Assembly (NCBI GenBank): GCA_013154005.1
Contig: JAADDK010000065.1
Coordinates: 1-40,176 of the forward strand
Reading direction: 5' to 3'
DNA from: Methanobacteriota archaeon
GTDB taxonomy: Archaea; Thermoplasmatota; Thermoplasmata; Thermoplasmatales; Aciduliprofundaceae
Length of the DNA: 40,176 bases
Shown: one piece after another, positions 1,458 through 23,342 of the stretch
How positions within the stretch are numbered: the stretch's first letter is position 1
Layout: each line of letters begins with the position of its first letter
The notes under the pieces: generated by a model
The model's database searches: none
The model's input: the letters and a program-made list of their open reading frames with translations, nothing else
Told to the model about the DNA's origin: nothing
Program-made: the position numbers and the translations under genes

Positions 1458-1479
1458 CGTGCACTCTTTATTCGTAGAG

Positions 1480-3954
1480 ATGACCCCGCTGATGCAGCAG
1501 TACTTCTCACTGAAATCGCAGTACAAGAACGCAATACTTTTTTTCAGAGTGGGGGATTTCTACGAGACCTTTGGCGACGATGCCAAGCTCGTCTCGAAGG
1601 AACTGAATATCGTGCTCACGCGCCGCAGCAAGGACGAGCCCATACCCATGGCGGGCATACCGCATCACGCCCTTGACGCATATCTATCGCGACTGATAAA
1701 AAAAGGTTATAGTGTGGCAATATGCGAGCAGCTTGAAGACCCGAAAAAAGCAAAAGGACTTGTTAAAAGAGACGTGGTGCGCATAGTCACGCCGGGCACT
1801 TTGATTGAAGATACCATGCTGGGCGAGGGCAACAACTTTCTGATGGCCATCTACGGAAAAGGCAAGCGATTCGGATTTGCGGCTCTCGACATCTCCACCG
1901 GCGAGTTCTTTGCAGGAGAGGTGGACAGAAACGGTGTGGAGGCGGAGATTCTGAGACTCTCACCCGCAGAGATTCTGGTGAACAATTCCTCCGGTATAAC
2001 GGTAGATGAGTGCAAGATAATGCCCGATGAATATTTTTCCGAGGAGGTGCTGAAAGAGCACTTTCATGTGCCCGAGCTGAGCGGATTTGGATTGTCGCAG
2101 CTTGCCCTCAAGGCGGCGGGCTGTGCACTGCGCTATGCGAAAGAAAACACCCGGAGCGAGCTGCGCAATGTGGATTCTCTTTTAGGCTATTTCAGCGAGA
2201 AGCATATGATTCTGGACTCAAGCACGCTTCGCAATCTGGAGATTTTCAAGAGCTTTGTGGGTGAGGAGCGCTTCACTCTTTACGGTGCATTGAATCGCAC
2301 CCGCACGCCCATGGGCGCCCGGCTCCTGCGCCGCTGGCTCGAAAAACCGCTTATTGATGTTAAACAAATAAAGATGCGTCTGGATTCGGTGGAAGAGCTC
2401 ACCAGAGAGCGAGGAATAGCAGAGAAAATAGACGAATCGCTTAAAAACATAAAGGATATCGAGCGGGTGGAATCGCGAATCTCGCTGGGCAAAGCGTCGC
2501 CCAGAGACCTGGTTGTGCTTCGAGAATCTCTGCGTCATGCTTCTAATCTGAGATTCGAATTTTCTGCATCGCTGCTGCGCACGCTTCGAGTGGACGAGAA
2601 CGTGGAGGAGATTGTGGAGCTTTTAGACCGAAGCATTGCGGGCGATTATCCGGTGGGCAGCGGTGCGATAAAAGAGGGCTACTCCGCAGAGTTAGATGAG
2701 CATCGACTGATTATAAGAGACGCCAAAAAGCTGATTGCAAAGATGGAAGCGGAAGAGCGAAAAAAGACGGGCATAAAAAGCCTTAAAATCGGATACAATG
2801 ACGTGATGGGTTATTACATAGACGTCAGCAAGGCGAATCTCAAATACGTGCCATCGCATTATAAGCGGAAGCAGACTCTGAAGAACTCTGAGAGGTTCAT
2901 CACCGACGAGTTGAAGGAGTTAGAGTACCGCATACTCACTGCCAGAGAGAGGGTGGAGGAAATTGAGCACAGGATATACGATGAGCTGATTCAAAAGCTT
3001 GCTGCATATGCGCCCATGCTTCGCGAAGTTGCCCGAAAAATTGCCACGATGGACGTGCTCCTCAATTTTGCCAGCATCGCGCTTGAACGGGATTATGTTC
3101 GTCCCGTAGTGGACGAAAGTATGGACCTGGAGATACGTGACGGGCGCCATCCGGTTGTGGAACAGTACGTTGATTTTGTGCCCAACGATACGCATCTTAA
3201 CCGTCAGGCGCGTTTTATAATTCTCACCGGGCCTAATATGGCCGGCAAGAGCACGTACATGAGGCAGGTGGCGCTCATCGCGATAATGGCTCAGATTGGC
3301 TCGTTTGTGCCCGCATCTTACGCGAAGATTGGCATGATAGACCGTGTGTATACCCGGGTAGGTGCGAGCGATGACATAACTCGCGGGCGCTCCACGTTCA
3401 TGGTTGAGATGCTGGAGGTGGCGAATATTCTCAACACTGCCACCGAGCGTTCGTTTGTGATTCTTGATGAGATAGGAAGAGGAACGAGCACGTATGACGG
3501 CATGGCAATAGCCTGGAGCGTGACCGAGCACATACACAACGTTATAAAATGTCGCACGATATTTGCCACACATTACCATCATCTTATAGACCTGGAGAAT
3601 GTTTTAGAGCACATTCGCAATTATCATATAGCCGTAAAGGAAACTCCGGACGGGCTGGTGTTCGTCCGTAAGGTGGTGCCCGGAGGAATGAGTAAAAGTT
3701 ATGGCATAGAAGTTGCTCGTCTGGCGGGGGTGCCCGGCAAGGTGGTTGAGCGTGCTAGAGAGATTCTGAACTTGATCGAGAAGGAAAACGCCATAGAGGT
3801 GCGCCGTAGCAGGCAGGTGATTCAGGCCACACTATTCCCTGTGGAAGATGATGAGCTTGTGGAAGAGATTCGCAGGCTGGACATAATGAATATGACGCCT
3901 CTCGAAGCGTTGAACAAGCTGCACGAACTGAAAAAGAAAGTTGATGAGCGGTGA
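1480..3954 (+). CDS. mutS: DNA mismatch repair protein MutS
   Basis: Mismatch-binding motif [11 protein letters not shown], Walker [15 protein letters not shown], and [19 protein letters not shown] opens at 1459 but the promoter position favours ATG 1480. Confidence 0.97.
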
Positions 3955-15489: not shown

Positions 15490-15861
15490 ATGTATATAAC
15501 GGTGTTAGGTATGCATGCCATTGAACGGAAAATAGACAGGGAGATGCGCTCCGGTGTGTATACGCTTCTGATTTTGAAAGCTATTTCTGAGCTGGGCGAG
15601 AGCTATGGATACGAGATTGAAAAGTACATCTATGAAAAGAGCGGTGGGCAAATAATGATTAAAGACGCCACGGTTTATCCCATTCTCAGGTATCTGACGA
15701 AAAATAAAGTTCTCAAATCGTACTGGACCGAGCCGGGAAAGGGCGTGCCGAGGAAGTATTATCAGCTCACGGACGAGGGCAAGGAGGTTTTTAAGAATCT
15801 GCTTAAGAGGTATCGCGAGCTGGAAGCGAGAGTGAACAAGGTTCTGGAGGGTGATGAGTGA
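15490..15861 (+). CDS. PadR-family transcriptional regulator
   Basis: MRSGVYTLLILKAISELGESYGYEIEKYIYEKSGGQIMIKDATVYPILRYLTKNKVLKSYWTEPGKGVPRKYYQLTDEGKE. Confidence 0.92.
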   Translation: MYITVLGMHAIERKIDREMRSGVYTLLILKAISELGESYGYEIEKYIYEKSGGQIMIKDATVYPILRYLTKNKVLKSYWTEPGKGVPRKYYQLTDEGKEVFKNLLKRYRELEARVNKVLEGDE

Positions 15862-16664
15862 TGTATTACTTTATGTTTATAATAACGTTAGTGTACCTGG
15901 CTGCCGGGCTGGCACAGTATTTCATCGCGCCGAAGGTGGGGCCGAACCCGTATTTTGGGTTCAGAGTGGGTTATACGCTGTCTGATAGAGAAGTTTGGAA
16001 TAAAGCTAATAGATTTCTGGGGCTGCTGATGACCATACACGGGCTCTTTCTGCTGCCCCTGTCCCTTATTCTGGACGTGCTCTGGTTCCTTATTCTGTTC
16101 CTTGTGCCGATGCTGGTTTTCATACCCATTGGCATAAAATACGCGGCGAATCTGCTCGAATTAAAGGGTGCAAAATCGGGAATTGTCGGGGAGAGAAAGA
16201 TGGAGCCCATCGTGCTCGGTTTTGCGTGGCTCATCACGCCCATGCTTTTTTATTCGATTCTTTTGCTTTATATGGCCTTTACATATCCGCAACTGCCTTC
16301 TGTGCTCGCCGTGCACTTCGATGCCGCGGGCAACCCCAACGGCTGGGCCACAAAGGAGAGCTTCTTTGTCAGTTATGCGGCATATTCTCTCATACTGCCG
16401 GGCACTGCGTATCTGTTTGCGTATCTGGGGTATCGGTATCCGATGTACGTGCACCCCGGCCGCACCCGTTTTCCCAGAGATGCGTATTTGAAAACACTGT
16501 TTCTGGCGATGGACGTGGCTCTGCTGTTTGAAATTTTCATCTATTACAGCATATACCTGTACGCAATGCAGGGAATTATGCTGAGCATTGGCTACACACT
16601 CATATTTACGATTATAATCGTGCTTGTGCCGATTGGCTATTTAGTATCTAAATGGAGGCGATAA
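15861..16664 (+). CDS. DUF1648 / SdpI-like multi-pass membrane protein
   Basis: GPNPYFGFRVGYTLSDREVWNKANRFLG (SdpI-like) and LPSVLAVHFDAAGNPNGWATKESFF (DUF1648-like). Start overlaps the PadR stop (TGATG). Confidence 0.8.
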   Translation: MYYFMFIITLVYLAAGLAQYFIAPKVGPNPYFGFRVGYTLSDREVWNKANRFLGLLMTIHGLFLLPLSLILDVLWFLILFLVPMLVFIPIGIKYAANLLELKGAKSGIVGERKMEPIVLGFAWLITPMLFYSILLLYMAFTYPQLPSVLAVHFDAAGNPNGWATKESFFVSYAAYSLILPGTAYLFAYLGYRYPMYVHPGRTRFPRDAYLKTLFLAMDVALLFEIFIYYSIYLYAMQGIMLSIGYTLIFTIIIVLVPIGYLVSKWRR

Positions 16665-16665
16665 G

Positions 16666-17577
16666 ATGGACCTGGAAGCGAAAGCATTAACAAAAAAATA
16701 TGGAAATTTCTACGCGCTGCGCGGACTTGACCTGAAAGTTAAAGGTGCCAAGTGTGTGGGCTATCTGGGCCCCAACGGCGCTGGCAAGACCACGACGTTG
16801 AAACTGTTCACGCACCTGCTGAACCCCACAGGGGGCGAGGCACTGATCAACGGATACAGCGTGCAGAAAGAGATGAAGAAAGCGCTTATGGAAGTGGGCA
16901 CTTTGATAGAAACGCCGGATTTTTATCCGTATTTGACTCCTGAGGAGTTGCTGACCATGCTTTGCAGGATTCGAGGCGCTACAAAATGCGATGTGAAGCA
17001 CGCGCTGGAAGAGGTGGGCATGTACGAGTGGCGAAACAAGAGGGTGGGCAAGTTTTCAAAGGGTATGAAACAGCGCATCGCGCTGGCCGCCGCGCTGGTG
17101 GCCAACCCGGAGATACTGATTCTTGACGAACCCACGACGGGCATGGACCCGCGGGGCATGGCGGAGATTCGCGAGGTAATTCGCGACCTGAAAAAATCGC
17201 AGCGCTTGATTTTCATGTCCTCGCATCTTCTATCCGAGGTCACCGAGGTGTGCGACGAGGTGGCAATGCTGGACCACGGCACCTTGCTTCTTCACGAGCC
17301 CATAGACGTGGTTTTAGAGCGATTCCGTGGCAATGTGGTGGAGGTAACTGCGCTGAACAAGATTGACGGTGAGGCAATCAAGGGCATCAAAGGAGTGGTG
17401 TCAGTGGAGCAGATATCCGACACGCGCGTGAGAATAGGATTCGATGACGGTGCGCAGACCCAGCACGCGATTCTCAGCGCTCTTATGCAGCAGGGTGTCG
17501 ATGTGGTGGAGTATCGCTCTGTGGGCATGGCGCTGGAAAAGGCGTATCTGGAGATGATTGGAGGTGATACAAAATGA
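16666..17577 (+). CDS. ABC transporter ATP-binding protein (copy 1)
   Basis: Walker A GPNGAGKTTTLKL, signature FSKGMKQRIALAAALV, Walker B ILILDEPTTGMDPRG. Confidence 0.95.
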   Translation: MDLEAKALTKKYGNFYALRGLDLKVKGAKCVGYLGPNGAGKTTTLKLFTHLLNPTGGEALINGYSVQKEMKKALMEVGTLIETPDFYPYLTPEELLTMLCRIRGATKCDVKHALEEVGMYEWRNKRVGKFSKGMKQRIALAAALVANPEILILDEPTTGMDPRGMAEIREVIRDLKKSQRLIFMSSHLLSEVTEVCDEVAMLDHGTLLLHEPIDVVLERFRGNVVEVTALNKIDGEAIKGIKGVVSVEQISDTRVRIGFDDGAQTQHAILSALMQQGVDVVEYRSVGMALEKAYLEMIGGDTK

Positions 17578-18383
17578 ACGATTTTGAACAGATGCTCATT
17601 TACTCCCGCTACCAATTTCGTAATTATGTGCGTGCAAAGCGATTATGGATTCTTCTTCTTATAACCGGGCTGGTAATCGCGCTAATCGTGAGTGTAAACG
17701 CCTATTTTGGCAATCCTGCGAGTGAGACAGCCAAGAAAACCGCGTCCACTTTCGCATCGTTTGCCCCAACACTTGTGGTGCTCACCGCACTGTTCTTTGG
17801 CGGTGATGCCATTGCTTCCGAGTATCAGAACAAGACCGGGTACTTTCTGCTGCCCAACCCGATACGCAGGTACGTAATTCTCTGGGGCAAGTACCTTGCC
17901 TCACTGGCGGCTGGCGGGCTCGTCGTGCTCATCTACTATCTCTCAGGGACGGTTTACACATACTACTATCACAGCACCGTGCCTGTGGAGTACTGGTACT
18001 CTCTCGCATACGCACTGGTGTTTCTGGTGAGCCTTTTATCGCTGACCTACATGTTTTCAACGTTCTTTAAAAACGGTGCGGTGGCGCTGGTGATTGTGGC
18101 GATACTTTACTTCTTCGTGTTCAACATAATTGACGGTGTGATTCAGCTCACGGGCATCGAGCCGTGGTTCTCCATAACCTATGCTGCGAACATAATCACG
18201 CTGGTGTTTCAGGGCTCGCACATGGGCGATTATCCGCACAAGACTGTGCTTCACCCCGGCAACGGTATAACGGTGACCATCTACAATCCGTACCTGTGGG
18301 AAGGGCTGGCCATAATGCTCGGGTATCTCATCATCTCAGCGATAATCTCCACGATAGTGTTCGAGAAGAAGGAAATGAAATAA
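17574..18383 (+). CDS. ABC-2 type transporter permease (copy 1)
   Basis: Six hydrophobic segments, GGDAIASEYQNKTGYFLLPNPIRRYVILWGKYLAS. 4-nt overlap with the upstream ATPase. Confidence 0.88.
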   Translation: MNDFEQMLIYSRYQFRNYVRAKRLWILLLITGLVIALIVSVNAYFGNPASETAKKTASTFASFAPTLVVLTALFFGGDAIASEYQNKTGYFLLPNPIRRYVILWGKYLASLAAGGLVVLIYYLSGTVYTYYYHSTVPVEYWYSLAYALVFLVSLLSLTYMFSTFFKNGAVALVIVAILYFFVFNIIDGVIQLTGIEPWFSITYAANIITLVFQGSHMGDYPHKTVLHPGNGITVTIYNPYLWEGLAIMLGYLIISAIISTIVFEKKEMK

Positions 18384-18450
18384 TTTTTTTATTTTTTTAG
18401 TAAAGTATTTATCTTGGCTGGCTATTACGCTTTTATAAAGGGTGGTGATT

Positions 18451-19365
18451 ATGTACCTTGAAGCAGTTAATCTGACCAAGCGGTATGGTAAGTTTTACGC
18501 ACTTAACGACCTGAACGTGAAAGTCGAAGGCTCTAAATGTGTGGGCTATCTGGGGCCGAACGGTGCTGGCAAGACCACGACCCTGAAGCTTTTCACCTCC
18601 TTGCTCAGGCCCACAAGAGGTGAGGCGATAATAAACGGGCACAGCGTTCAAAAAGATAAGGTACAGGCGCTCAAAGATGTGGCTGCGGTGGTGGAGACGC
18701 CCGAACTCTATCCCACGTTCACACCCGAGGAAATTCTTCAGATGTCCTGTGCGCTGAGAAGCGTGAATAAATGCGATATCAAGCATGCTTTGGAAGAGGT
18801 GGGCATGTACGAGTGGCGAAACAAGAGAGTGGGCAAGTTTTCAAAGGGAATGAAACAGCGCATCGCGCTGGCCGCCGCGCTGGTGGGCAATCCTGAGATA
18901 CTGATTCTTGACGAGCCCACGTCCGGCATGGACCCGCGGGGCATGGCGGAGATTCGCGAGGTTATTCGCAACATGAAAAAATCTCAGCGCTTGATTTTCA
19001 TGTCCTCGCATCTCTTATCGGAGGTGGCGGAAGTCTGCGATGAGGTAATAATGATCGACCGTGGCAAGTTCGTGCTGCATTCTTCCATGGATGATGTGAT
19101 TAAAAGATTCGGCGGAAACAGTGTGTACGTTACCGTTCTGGAGATGCCAGATATGGCGAAGATTGAGAGCATTCCCGGCGTGAAAAGCGTGGAAAAAGTA
19201 TCCGAAAATCGGCTTAATATCGTGTATGAGCCGGGCGAGGATGCGCAGTACAGGATTTTGAAAGAGCTGATTTATGCAGGAGTTAAGGTTACAGAGTACA
19301 ACGCAGCCAAGCAGATGCTTGAAAATGCATATCTCAAGTTGATTGGAGGCGATAGAAATGATTGA
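18451..19365 (+). CDS. ABC transporter ATP-binding protein (copy 2)
   Basis: Walker A GPNGAGKTTTLKL, FSKGMKQRIALAAALVGNPEILILDEPTSGMDPRG. SD GGTGGTGAT precedes ATG 18451; the ORF-track GTG 18442 is within the SD. Confidence 0.95.
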   Translation: MYLEAVNLTKRYGKFYALNDLNVKVEGSKCVGYLGPNGAGKTTTLKLFTSLLRPTRGEAIINGHSVQKDKVQALKDVAAVVETPELYPTFTPEEILQMSCALRSVNKCDIKHALEEVGMYEWRNKRVGKFSKGMKQRIALAAALVGNPEILILDEPTSGMDPRGMAEIREVIRNMKKSQRLIFMSSHLLSEVAEVCDEVIMIDRGKFVLHSSMDDVIKRFGGNSVYVTVLEMPDMAKIESIPGVKSVEKVSENRLNIVYEPGEDAQYRILKELIYAGVKVTEYNAAKQMLENAYLKLIGGDRND

Positions 19366-20155
19366 AGTGCATAAGGTTCTATCTCTTTACAGGTTTCAAA
19401 TTCTGTGGCACAAGAGAAGCATGGCGCTCTGGATTTTGCTTTTGCTCACTCTCGCCGTGGTCGCAGGCATTATCTTCGAGCCGTATCTGTTAAATCCCCG
19501 TGCCCACGTATCCGTTCACTCTGTGGCTGAGAGCCTGTCTGGCGGTTCTACGTTTGTGATACTGCTTGCCGCGCTGTTTCTCGGCTCAGATGCGCTATCG
19601 CGTGAGTTTCAGAGAAAAACTGCGTATTTCCTGTTACCCACTCCTGTTAAGCGAGTTACGATATTGACCGCCAAGTTTCTGGGCACGTATATAGTGTCCG
19701 GAGTGTTGCTGCTCATTTACTTTGGAGTGGGTGCCGGATACATGGCTGTTGCGTACCATGCTGTGCCTGTGCGATATTTTGCCTCAATGGCGCTTGCGTA
19801 TCTGTATCTTGCGAGTCTGCTCGCGTTTACGTACATGTTCTCTGCGGTGTTTGATAGCGGTGCGGCAGTGGCCACGTTGATTTTCATGATTGTAATCTTT
19901 GGAAATGTGGTTATATTCCTGGTGGAGAACGTGATGCACATAGAGCCGTGGTTCTGGCTGTGGTACGGCACCGGGATAATCACTCTTGTGTATGCGGGCA
20001 GCTATATCGGTGATTATTCGCATATTTCCCTGGGACCCATGGGCAATACCACGTACAATCCCTACATTTGGGAGGGCATTTTGATAATGCTCGGATACTT
20101 CATCATCTCATTCCTAGTTGCGGCGTGGTGCTTTGAGCGGAAGGAGCTGCGATGA
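19358..20155 (+). CDS. ABC-2 type transporter permease (copy 2)
   Basis: LGSDALSREFQRKTAYFLLPTPVKRVTILTAKFLGTY, paralogous to copy 1. Confidence 0.88.
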   Translation: MIEVHKVLSLYRFQILWHKRSMALWILLLLTLAVVAGIIFEPYLLNPRAHVSVHSVAESLSGGSTFVILLAALFLGSDALSREFQRKTAYFLLPTPVKRVTILTAKFLGTYIVSGVLLLIYFGVGAGYMAVAYHAVPVRYFASMALAYLYLASLLAFTYMFSAVFDSGAAVATLIFMIVIFGNVVIFLVENVMHIEPWFWLWYGTGIITLVYAGSYIGDYSHISLGPMGNTTYNPYIWEGILIMLGYFIISFLVAAWCFERKELR

Positions 20156-20205
20156 TTGAGGCTATTCTGGGCAATTTTTATATTATTTTTTACACTTTCC
20201 CGCGT

Positions 20206-20928
20206 ATGTTCGTTTTGAAGATAGGCGGTTCTGCGCTCACCGACAAAAAAACAGGCACGATTTTTGTGAATGAAGTTGCAGAGCGTGTGGCAAGGGAGCT
20301 GAATGATGAGCAGTGTGTGATAGTTCATGGTGTGGGTTATGTGGGCCACAAACTGGCAAAGCAGCATTCACTGCATCTGGGTCTGCAGGATAACCAGCTC
20401 GCGTGGGCGCGGCTCAGAGTTGAGGTTAAAAAGATGACCCGAATCATTGTTGAGAAGCTTGTGGAGCATGGCGTGCCCGCGGTGGAGGTCTCCTCCGCAG
20501 ATATTATGCGAGCCAGTAATGGTAAGCTTGTGAGCTTTGATGTGAGCATCATCGATGAGTTTGTGAAAAAGGGCTTTGTTCCAGTAATGCATGCCGACGG
20601 TGCGCTGGACGATGTTCGCGGGTTATCTGTCATTTCTGGCGATACCATTGTTACGGAACTCGCCCTGAAACTGGGTGTTTCACGCATAATTTACGGCACG
20701 GATGTGGACGGAATTTACGATGTGGAGGGTAAGGTGATTCCTGAAATACATGAGCTGTCCTCGGTTGAACTCTGGGAGGTTGACGACTTTTCTGGAGGCA
20801 TGAGAAAGAAAATAGAAGAGGCGCTGCGTTTGAAAAATGTAGATGTGCAGGTGATTAATCTCCGAAAAGACGGTGCACTGGCCGATGTGCTCGCTGGCAG
20901 ACATGCTGGCACACTCATAAGGAGGTGA
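20206..20928 (+). CDS. Isopentenyl phosphate kinase-like amino acid kinase family protein
   Basis: MFVLKIGGSALTDKKTG...IVHGVGYVGHKLA...VSFDVSIIDEFVKKGFVPVMHADGALDD...ISGDTIVTELALKLGVSRIIYGTDVDGIYD...SGGMRKKIEEA. TATA-like TTTTTATA about 30 nt upstream of ATG 20206. Confidence 0.85.
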   Translation: MFVLKIGGSALTDKKTGTIFVNEVAERVARELNDEQCVIVHGVGYVGHKLAKQHSLHLGLQDNQLAWARLRVEVKKMTRIIVEKLVEHGVPAVEVSSADIMRASNGKLVSFDVSIIDEFVKKGFVPVMHADGALDDVRGLSVISGDTIVTELALKLGVSRIIYGTDVDGIYDVEGKVIPEIHELSSVELWEVDDFSGGMRKKIEEALRLKNVDVQVINLRKDGALADVLAGRHAGTLIRR

Positions 20929-20932
20929 GACC

Positions 20933-21610
20933 ATGAGTCTGTGGATTGATATTGGAATTGGTGTGGCAGAACTGATTTACACATTCATAATAGTGTTCGT
21001 TATGGACGCTGCTGTGCGGCGCGGGTTTCCTCAGGACGTGTCGAGAAAGATAGTGCACATGTGGGCCGGCGGGCTCGTTGTGTTCTGGTTTTTTTACACG
21101 ACTCCCTACGGAAAGTACATATTCATGGCCACGCCTGCGCTGTGGGTGCTGCTTCTGGTGCTCACTGCACTTACCAAAGATGAAAATGATCCCACTGTGA
21201 AGAGCATGACGCGCACGGGCAACCCCAAAGAGCTGCTTCTGGGCGTGCTTTTCTTTCCGCTGATGCTCGTGATTATGACGTTTCTGGCGTATCGCACGCT
21301 TCCGGGTGCAGTTGCCATAGCCTCGGTGGGTTTTGGAGACGGCATTGCTCCCATATTCGGCAAGTACTGGGGCAAACACAAGTATCGTGTTGTGGGCAGG
21401 GTTAAAAGTATCGAGGGCTCAATAGGCGTGTTTCTGGGCACGTTCATTGTCTCCGAGCTCATAGCGCTGGTGTTCTTTGGTGCACCGTATCTTTACCCGA
21501 TTCTGCTTGCATCTGCTCTGGCAGTGGTGCTTGAAGCCATCTCGCCCAGCGATGTTGACAATTTCATAGTGCCCTTCGGTGTATGGCTTCTAATGCTCTA
21601 TCTTCTCTGA
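20933..21610 (+). CDS. SEC59/DGK1/VTE5-type (polyprenol/diacylglycerol) CTP-dependent kinase family membrane protein
   Basis: SRKIVHMWAGGLVVF, VGFGDGIAPIFGKYWG, GRVKSIEGSIGVFLGTF; multi-pass; GGAGGTGAG SD. Confidence 0.82.
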   Translation: MSLWIDIGIGVAELIYTFIIVFVMDAAVRRGFPQDVSRKIVHMWAGGLVVFWFFYTTPYGKYIFMATPALWVLLLVLTALTKDENDPTVKSMTRTGNPKELLLGVLFFPLMLVIMTFLAYRTLPGAVAIASVGFGDGIAPIFGKYWGKHKYRVVGRVKSIEGSIGVFLGTFIVSELIALVFFGAPYLYPILLASALAVVLEAISPSDVDNFIVPFGVWLLMLYLL

Positions 21611-21653: not shown

Positions 21654-23342
21654 GTGGTATCCAGAATCAGAGTGCTGCCAGATGCGCTGGCAAATAAAAT
21701 CGCTGCGGGTGAGGTGGTGGAGCGACCTGCGAGCGTGATTAAAGAGCTTGTTGAGAACAGCATAGATGCGGGCGCCACCAAAATTTTCATCACTGTGAGA
21801 AATGGAGGCATCAAAGAGATTCGTGTGGTGGATAACGGAGCGGGTATGAACGAAGAGGAAGCAAAACTCGCGTTTCTCCGACACGCCACCAGCAAGCTCA
21901 GCTCCGAGGAAGAGCTGTCTCGAATCACCACGCTTGGGTTCAGGGGCGAGGCGCTGCCCAGCATTGCCTCCGTGGCAAAAGTTGAGCTGTACACCCGGCC
22001 AAAAGATGCGCTGGTGGGCACGCATGTGCTCATAGAAGGCGGTGAGTTCATAAAGGTGGAGCCCGGAGGCTGTCCGCCCGGCACGAGCATCGCAGTTCGT
22101 GAGCTATTTTACAATACTCCTGCACGCAGAAAGTTTCTGAAAACGCCACGCTCGGAGTTTGCCGCGATAGTGGGCGTGGTGGAAAAGTACGTGCTTGCAT
22201 ATCCTGCCATACACATAAAGCTCATTCACAATGGACGCACTGTCATAGATGCGCCCCCCGGTAAGGATATTGACCGCATACGCTCGGTATGGGGTGCAGA
22301 TGTGGCAGATAAGATGGTTTACGTGGAAGAAGATGCCCGGGTTTCTGTGCGCGGCTACGTGTCCAAGCCATATCTGAATCGTAAAGATAGAACGAAGATT
22401 GTGGTGTTTGTAAACGGTAGATACGTGAAAAATTCCTCTTTGCAAAACTATGTGGTGCAGGGATACCGGACCCTGCTGTTCAGAGACAGCTATCCATATG
22501 CGGTGCTTCATATCACCCTTCCACCGGAAGATGTTGATGTGAACGTGCACCCTGCGAAGTATTTGGTGAAATTTAAAGATGAGCAGGAAGTAAGAAAGCG
22601 CATTGATAAAGCAATCTGGAACGCGCTCACCGTGCAGGATAACATACCGACGCAGAGCAATGTGAAAGGAGAGCGTCGAGCACCCGTGCTTGGCGAGGTG
22701 AAAAAAGAGCGCCAGATGGTATTTGAGGTCAAACAGCAGAAAAAAGAAAAGAGTCTGTTCGATTACATATCGCGTGCCCGGCTGCCGGGCTACGAGGTGC
22801 TCGGACAGTTTGATGATACTTATATAATTGTCAAATCTCGTGATGCTTTAATTATCATTGATCAGCATGCGGCTCACGAACGCATTCGCTATGAGCGGTT
22901 TCTCAGGGAAATGCATGAGAAAAAGGTGCAGAGATTAATCGAGCCTGTGGTGGTCAATCTCGCAATGAGCGATTATGAGCAGATTCTTAAAATTAAAGAT
23001 TCGCTGGCAGAGTTCGGATTGATTGTGGAAGATTTCGGAGAGGGCGCCGTGGTGGTGCGCGGTGTGCCGCCGATAGTGAAGCGTGGCGAGATTGAAGAAA
23101 TTGTGCATGATATAATCTCGCTGGGTCCGGAGGCGGTGGATAGAAAGAGAGACGAGCTCATAAAATTGATGTCGTGTAAGGGCGCAATAAAGGCGCATGA
23201 TAAATTGTCCGTGTTCGAGATGGAAGAGCTCGTTGCTCAGCTTTTAAAATGTGAGAATCCGTACACGTGCCCGCATGGCAGGCCCACAATGATAAGGTTC
23301 ACGCCTCAGGAACTGGAGAAAATGTTTAAAAGAAAAGAATAA
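21654..23342 (+). CDS. mutL: DNA mismatch repair protein MutL
   Basis: GHKL ATPase motifs (IAAGEVVERPASVIKELVENSIDAGA, DNGAGM, TLGFRGEALPSI), DQHAAHERIRYE endonuclease motif, CPHGRP. GTG start. Confidence 0.97.
   Translation: MVSRIRVLPDALANKIAAGEVVERPASVIKELVENSIDAGATKIFITVRNGGIKEIRVVDNGAGMNEEEAKLAFLRHATSKLSSEEELSRITTLGFRGEALPSIASVAKVELYTRPKDALVGTHVLIEGGEFIKVEPGGCPPGTSIAVRELFYNTPARRKFLKTPRSEFAAIVGVVEKYVLAYPAIHIKLIHNGRTVIDAPPGKDIDRIRSVWGADVADKMVYVEEDARVSVRGYVSKPYLNRKDRTKIVVFVNGRYVKNSSLQNYVVQGYRTLLFRDSYPYAVLHITLPPEDVDVNVHPAKYLVKFKDEQEVRKRIDKAIWNALTVQDNIPTQSNVKGERRAPVLGEVKKERQMVFEVKQQKKEKSLFDYISRARLPGYEVLGQFDDTYIIVKSRDALIIIDQHAAHERIRYERFLREMHEKKVQRLIEPVVVNLAMSDYEQILKIKDSLAEFGLIVEDFGEGAVVVRGVPPIVKRGEIEEIVHDIISLGPEAVDRKRDELIKLMSCKGAIKAHDKLSVFEMEELVAQLLKCENPYTCPHGRPTMIRFTPQELEKMFKRKE

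Follow-up and report, generated by a model that had tools for sequence, protein, structure and literature searches.

What does an isopentenyl phosphate kinase (IPK)-like protein with an altered glycine-rich loop do when its gene stands directly before one for a SEC59/VTE5-type membrane protein? The question is raised by the window, a 40,176-nucleotide stretch of an Aciduliprofundaceae genome (contig JAADDK010000065.1), in which the original prediction saw a candidate two-step salvage module. The IPK-like protein is called IPK2 here. Dozens of archaea from distant lineages carry the two genes side by side, and the pair probably recycles isoprenoid alcohols into archaeal membrane building blocks.

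Organization of the locus

Both open reading frames were verified on the same (+) strand. The IPK2 start is the ATG at 20206, with an equivalent start residue in relatives, and its stop codon occupies 20926–20928. As predicted, the VTE5-like gene follows after a gap of 4 nt, with its ATG at 20933 and a Shine–Dalgarno sequence of its own. The features are as follows.

20177–20183, + strand: TATA-like TTTATAT, centred approximately 26 nt 5' of the IPK2 ATG; candidate promoter (sequence)
20206–20928, + strand: IPK2, 240 amino acids, amino acid kinase fold paralogue of the IPK family; proposed prenyl-monophosphate kinase (NF040647, IPK fold, catalytic residues)
20326–20349, + strand: glycine-rich loop HGVGYVGH, IPK2 residues 41–48 (alignment)
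20599–20601, + strand: Gly132 of IPK2, at the position of V130 (R3) in Thermoplasma acidophilum IPK (alignment; pocket definition from PMC8500459)
20921–20925, + strand: Shine–Dalgarno GGAGG of the VTE5-like gene, just 5' of the IPK2 stop codon (sequence)
20933–21610, + strand: SEC59/VTE5-type polytopic membrane protein, 225 amino acids; proposed CTP-dependent prenol kinase (PF01148, membrane model, motifs)

The position of TTTATAT suggests that the two-gene unit may have its own leaderless promoter. An assembly error or frameshift at the pair is ruled out by intact open reading frames in several genomes. Upstream (15490–20155) lie a PadR-like regulator, recognized by eye, and then two similar ABC ATPase/permease gene pairs; this block is not kept beside the pair in relatives. 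The window carries homologues of both MutS (1459–3954) and MutL (21654–23342), the latter directly 3' of the pair.

IPK2 is an IPK-family protein outside the canonical subclass

IPK2 scores 166.9 bits against the NCBIfam model IPPK_Arch (NF040647), which has a curated cut-off of 120 bits. Its AlphaFold model has a mean pLDDT of 85.6, and the first 33 PDB matches in a fold comparison are IPKs only. The protein is thus IPK-like overall, as had been proposed. It retains the catalytic residues K5, K14, H48, S144, and D146; K5, K14, H50, and D144 (T. acidophilum numbering) are invariant across all IPK groups aligned. The loop at residues 41–48 reads HGVGYVGH and not roughly HGGGSFGH, again in agreement with the prediction. 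Because score and fold fit and the loop does not have the Gly or Ala of canonical IPKs at position 45 (T. acidophilum numbering), we place IPK2 within the IPK family but outside the canonical subclass. Automatic annotation labels all proteins of the VTE5-linked class isopentenyl phosphate kinase.

The genome of the window encodes a further IPK on another contig (G000:C71:12557), which has the canonical loop HGAGSFGH, with a gene for a type 2 IPP isomerase (idi-2) directly 3' of it. This search had been proposed with the original prediction, and its outcome removes the case in which IPK2 is the only IPK of the genome. IPK2 is thus an additional copy, one that the genome can dispense with for IPP synthesis.

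The pair within its family

When the order was searched, close relatives of IPK2 (58–60 % identity) were found in four other genomes of the family, and in three of these a VTE5-like gene (70–73 % identity) adjoins IPK2 in the same order. The intact pair is present in G000, G017, G020, and G021 (DHVE2), and no other neighbour is common to these loci. No VTE5-like gene adjoins the IPK2 of G007, a genome with a second pair elsewhere. This second version, with the loop HGVGSYGH or HGVGSLGH, occurs in three family genomes (L016, L019, L039). Of the 18 family genomes, 8 have an IPK2/IPK3 paralogue as well as a strong VTE5-like gene, G018 being included on the strength of a remnant; neither is found in the other ten, and the distribution is scattered across genera. 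Fisher's test for co-occurrence in the 18 genomes, with phylogeny ignored, gives p = 2e-5, a value that is only descriptive because related sequences are not independent.

At a contig end in G018 (L036:1501–2193), a short IPK2 fragment is in frame with the VTE5-like protein, either a real fusion or deletion or an assembly artefact. In G019, the VTE5-like gene is weaker (29 % identity) and there is no IPK paralogue; this SEC59-like gene overlaps one for a thymidylate-kinase-like P-loop kinase (L040:878–2160), possibly a different two-kinase pairing.

Recurrence in distant archaea

A single-protein scan of genome contigs with IPK2 as the query found no relatives, and the alignment of the membrane protein was therefore used as the query. 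This profile scan revealed loci in Njordarchaeota in which an IPK-like gene directly precedes the VTE5-like one. Equivalent pairs are present in approximately 50 Asgard genomes, Njordarchaeota included. Across 228 Asgard genomes, an IPK-like gene adjoins 51 of the 79 best VTE5-like genes on the same strand. Seen from the other partner, of the 47 top linked-type IPKs, 46 have a VTE5-like gene as neighbour, and the remaining one lies near a contig end. The pair comprises the only genes common to all 20 Asgard loci compared with their flanks; no conserved lipid genes were found near the pairs in these 20 loci or in the family loci. Another IPK is present in 13 of the 15 paired Asgard genomes searched and in both Njordarchaeota. 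The SEC59-like genes of 84 other Thermoplasmatota genomes, scanned as a control, are all distant (≤118 bits vs. 295–327 bits), and among the matches listed none stands beside a listed IPK.

The proposed check for recurrence in other archaea thus finds the pair conserved in four DHVE2 genomes and approximately 50 Asgard genomes. Chance adjacency is ruled out by recurrence in two archaeal phyla without shared neighbours.

In several Asgard genomes, an IPK with Val in the loop (V-loop) is not linked to a VTE5-like gene. In G512, G514, and G518 (L173, L174, L175), the only clear IPK is of the V-loop type and the VTE5-like gene lies elsewhere; the loop class may hence at times occur in the absence of a second IPK. 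The locus in G535 (L233) has a tandem of two VTE5-like genes, followed by an IPK-like gene. Outside the archaea (L070, L074–L080, L082), VTE5-like proteins without an adjacent IPK were seen in Ignavibacteria (approximately 38–42 % identity) and a KSB1 bacterium (29 %).

A loop residue as marker of the VTE5-linked IPKs

We aligned 211 IPKs, 55 linked to VTE5-like genes and 156 others, and compared position 45, which corresponds to residue 43 in IPK2. It is Val or Thr in 54 of the 55 linked proteins and Gly or Ala in 147 of the 156 unlinked ones. Of the nine unlinked proteins with a V-type residue, eight belong to the linked classes: the orphan IPK2 of G007, one protein at a contig edge, and six Asgard proteins that are of the linked type or lie beside such proteins. 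Only one protein sampled clearly breaks the loop rule, L286 (G397), a seemingly ordinary Thermoplasmatota IPK with the loop HGVGSFGH. V43 marks the VTE5-linked class and is not ordinary IPK variation; the suspicion that the altered loop might be common among ordinary IPKs is not borne out. The Y-[VEI] that follows the loop valine (Y45 in IPK2 numbering) is restricted to the IPK2 clade in this sample, and the catalytic histidine (H48 in IPK2) is present in all 211 proteins.

In the phylogenetic tree, the Asgard and Njordarchaeota proteins and the second version from the family form a supported clade (99/93). The IPK2 clade is a long branch whose position is not settled by the tree. The best tree splits the linked IPKs, and a constraint of all of them to one clade is not rejected (AU test, p = 0.515).

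The membrane protein

The sole Pfam match of the membrane protein is CTP_transf_1 (PF01148), at a marginal 27.1 bits with a cut-off of 24 bits, which places it in the CTP-transferase superfamily. Most of its scanned homologues do not match this family, and one scores 22.9 bits. The model is helical and of the membrane type. Its top fold match is CdsA (PDB ID: 4q2e), and this match is weak (E = 7e-3, TM score 0.38). No sequence relatives were found in the PDB, and a search for plasmid copies found none. The motifs SRKIVH, GFGDG, and KSIEGS that had been read in the protein are all present, and the VTE5-like homologues keep RK..H, GDG.A, a K..EGS-like motif, and P...DN. Of these, K..EGS and DN are presumably closer to SEC59/VTE5 than to the CdsA signature, a lead only. 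From the weak Pfam score, the weak fold match, and these motifs, we infer that the protein may be a kinase and not a cytidylyltransferase.

The substrate pocket

Four positions that form the chain pocket of IPK (R1–R4) have been defined (PMC8500459). In the window protein, these are W, L, G, and V. The glycine at the V130 position is present in all five IPK2 proteins and in both Njordarchaeota proteins. The change of V130 to Gly is a strong opening of the pocket; the change of Y70 to Trp introduces a bulkier residue that fills it. The mean total volume of the four residues is 589 Å3 in the IPK2 clade vs. 609 Å3 in canonical IPKs, so this comparison does not demonstrate an enlargement at R1–R4. 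As originally worded, the idea of a loop change mirroring a longer chain is not supported, as the total is nearly unchanged and the one opening is accompanied by the bulkier tryptophan. Longer-chain specificity of IPK2 is plausible. A C15–C20 substrate is proposed mainly from the type of the partner membrane protein.

Proposed pathway and alternatives

Among characterized enzymes, those of the SEC59/VTE5 type are prenol kinases and those of the IPK family convert a monophosphate to a diphosphate (PMC9782597, PMC8500459). The tight linkage and the extra IPK make prenol-to-prenyl-diphosphate salvage the best explanation of the pair. In the reading we favour, and consider reasonably probable, the pair is a two-gene salvage module similar to VTE5–VTE6, with an IPK-family enzyme for the second step. 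In the first step, the membrane protein would transfer a phosphate from CTP to a hydrophobic prenol, with C15–C20 alcohols such as geranylgeraniol the likeliest substrates, and so yield the prenyl monophosphate. Soluble IPK2 would then use ATP to convert this to the diphosphate, which could re-enter prenyl transfer and ether-lipid synthesis. The two-step module of the original prediction is thus partly supported, having withstood the checks on a second IPK, on recurrence in two phyla, and on the loop class; its substrates and both activities are proposals. Points against it are the near-canonical total pocket volume, the IPK2 of G007 that has no VTE5-like neighbour, and the unlinked V-loop IPKs of several Asgard genomes, and its least certain part is the kinase identity of the membrane protein.

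The genome of the window and all others of the family (18 genomes; G000, G006–G022) show no match to DUF92/VTE6 (PF01940), the usual candidate for the second kinase, which is found in 92 of the order's 117 genomes. DUF92 is thereby ruled out as the second kinase in the window's genome. Its family-wide absence fits replacement by IPK2 and may stem from one ancestral loss.

IPK2 could also be a redundant ordinary IPK acting on isopentenyl phosphate or dimethylallyl phosphate, with the pair handling the C5 alcohols isoprenol and prenol in an isopentenol-use pathway. The NF040647 model names IPK2 as an IPK, characterized IPKs accept many small alkyl phosphates (PMC8500459), the total pocket volume is similar to the canonical one, and the V-loop protein is the only clear IPK in G512, G514, and G518. 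We nevertheless regard this as unlikely: a canonical IPK is already in the genome, the loop substitution spans the whole class, and polytopic proteins of the partner's type (VTE5, FOLK, SEC59) act elsewhere on long hydrophobic alcohols (PMC9782597).

Longer chains still are called for if the membrane protein is a dolichol or polyprenol kinase for glycan carriers and IPK2 converts the long polyprenyl phosphate to the diphosphate that a glycan pathway with diphosphate-linked carriers would use. Homologues of SEC59 act as dolichol kinases, and the archaeal ones have been given the same role (PMC5898192). Beyond the pair, however, the loci have no gene in common, hence there is no conserved glycosylation context, and chains of C50 or more would be unlikely to fit the pocket of a soluble IPK-fold enzyme; this reading appears improbable to us. 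We attach just as little weight to a scheme in which neither protein is a prenol enzyme, the membrane protein being a CdsA-like cytidylyltransferase and IPK2 phosphorylating some small molecule. The sole Pfam match and the top fold match both point in that direction, but the latter is weak, and K..EGS and DN, conserved motifs that serve only as a lead, presumably resemble SEC59/VTE5 and not the CdsA signature.

The IPK label on all these proteins conceals a second class, widespread among Asgard archaea, and has a bearing on genome-based interpretations of the mevalonate pathway. Together, the loop residue and the adjacent gene offer a simple test that separates the two classes. Both enzymes of a salvage module would be natural candidates for the production of long prenyl diphosphates from alcohols. 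Salvage kinases for farnesol and geranylgeraniol are few and poorly known, and the route has been called a missing pathway (PMC9782597). In the open-access literature, we found no description of the IPK2/VTE5-like gene pair and no archaeal genes named for the recycling of isoprenoid alcohols into membrane building blocks.

Comparison with known systems

IPK2 shares the fold, the catalytic Lys, His, and Asp residues, and a score above the family cut-off with archaeal IPKs (structures from M. jannaschii, M. thermautotrophicus, T. acidophilum, T. paralvinellae, and Ca. M. alvus). It differs from them (28–36 % identity) in the loop, where G/A45 is replaced by Val and S47-F48 by Y-[VEI], in the change of V130 to Gly, and in a deletion past the TDVDG motif, where canonical IPKs have ..DPK... 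Genomic linkage to a VTE5-like gene is likewise a feature of IPK2.

Geranylgeraniol kinase and geranylgeranyl phosphate kinase activities of Sulfolobus were described in 1996, and later literature continues to cite them as activities (PMC9782597). The chemistry proposed for the pair is the same; on the Sulfolobus side there are activities, and we found no gene assignment in open papers. The Methanosarcina SEC59–DUF92 fusion, for example Mbar_A3310 (PMC5898192), likewise ties a SEC59-like protein to a second proposed isoprenoid kinase, but the second partner is DUF92 there and an IPK-family protein in the window. The plant VTE5–VTE6 system of phytol kinase and phytyl-phosphate kinase (PMC9782597) resembles the pair in its proposed logic, with a SEC59-like kinase followed by a second kinase. 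Plant VTE6 is a DUF92/COG1836 membrane protein, whereas the second step here would be carried out by an enzyme of the amino acid kinase fold.
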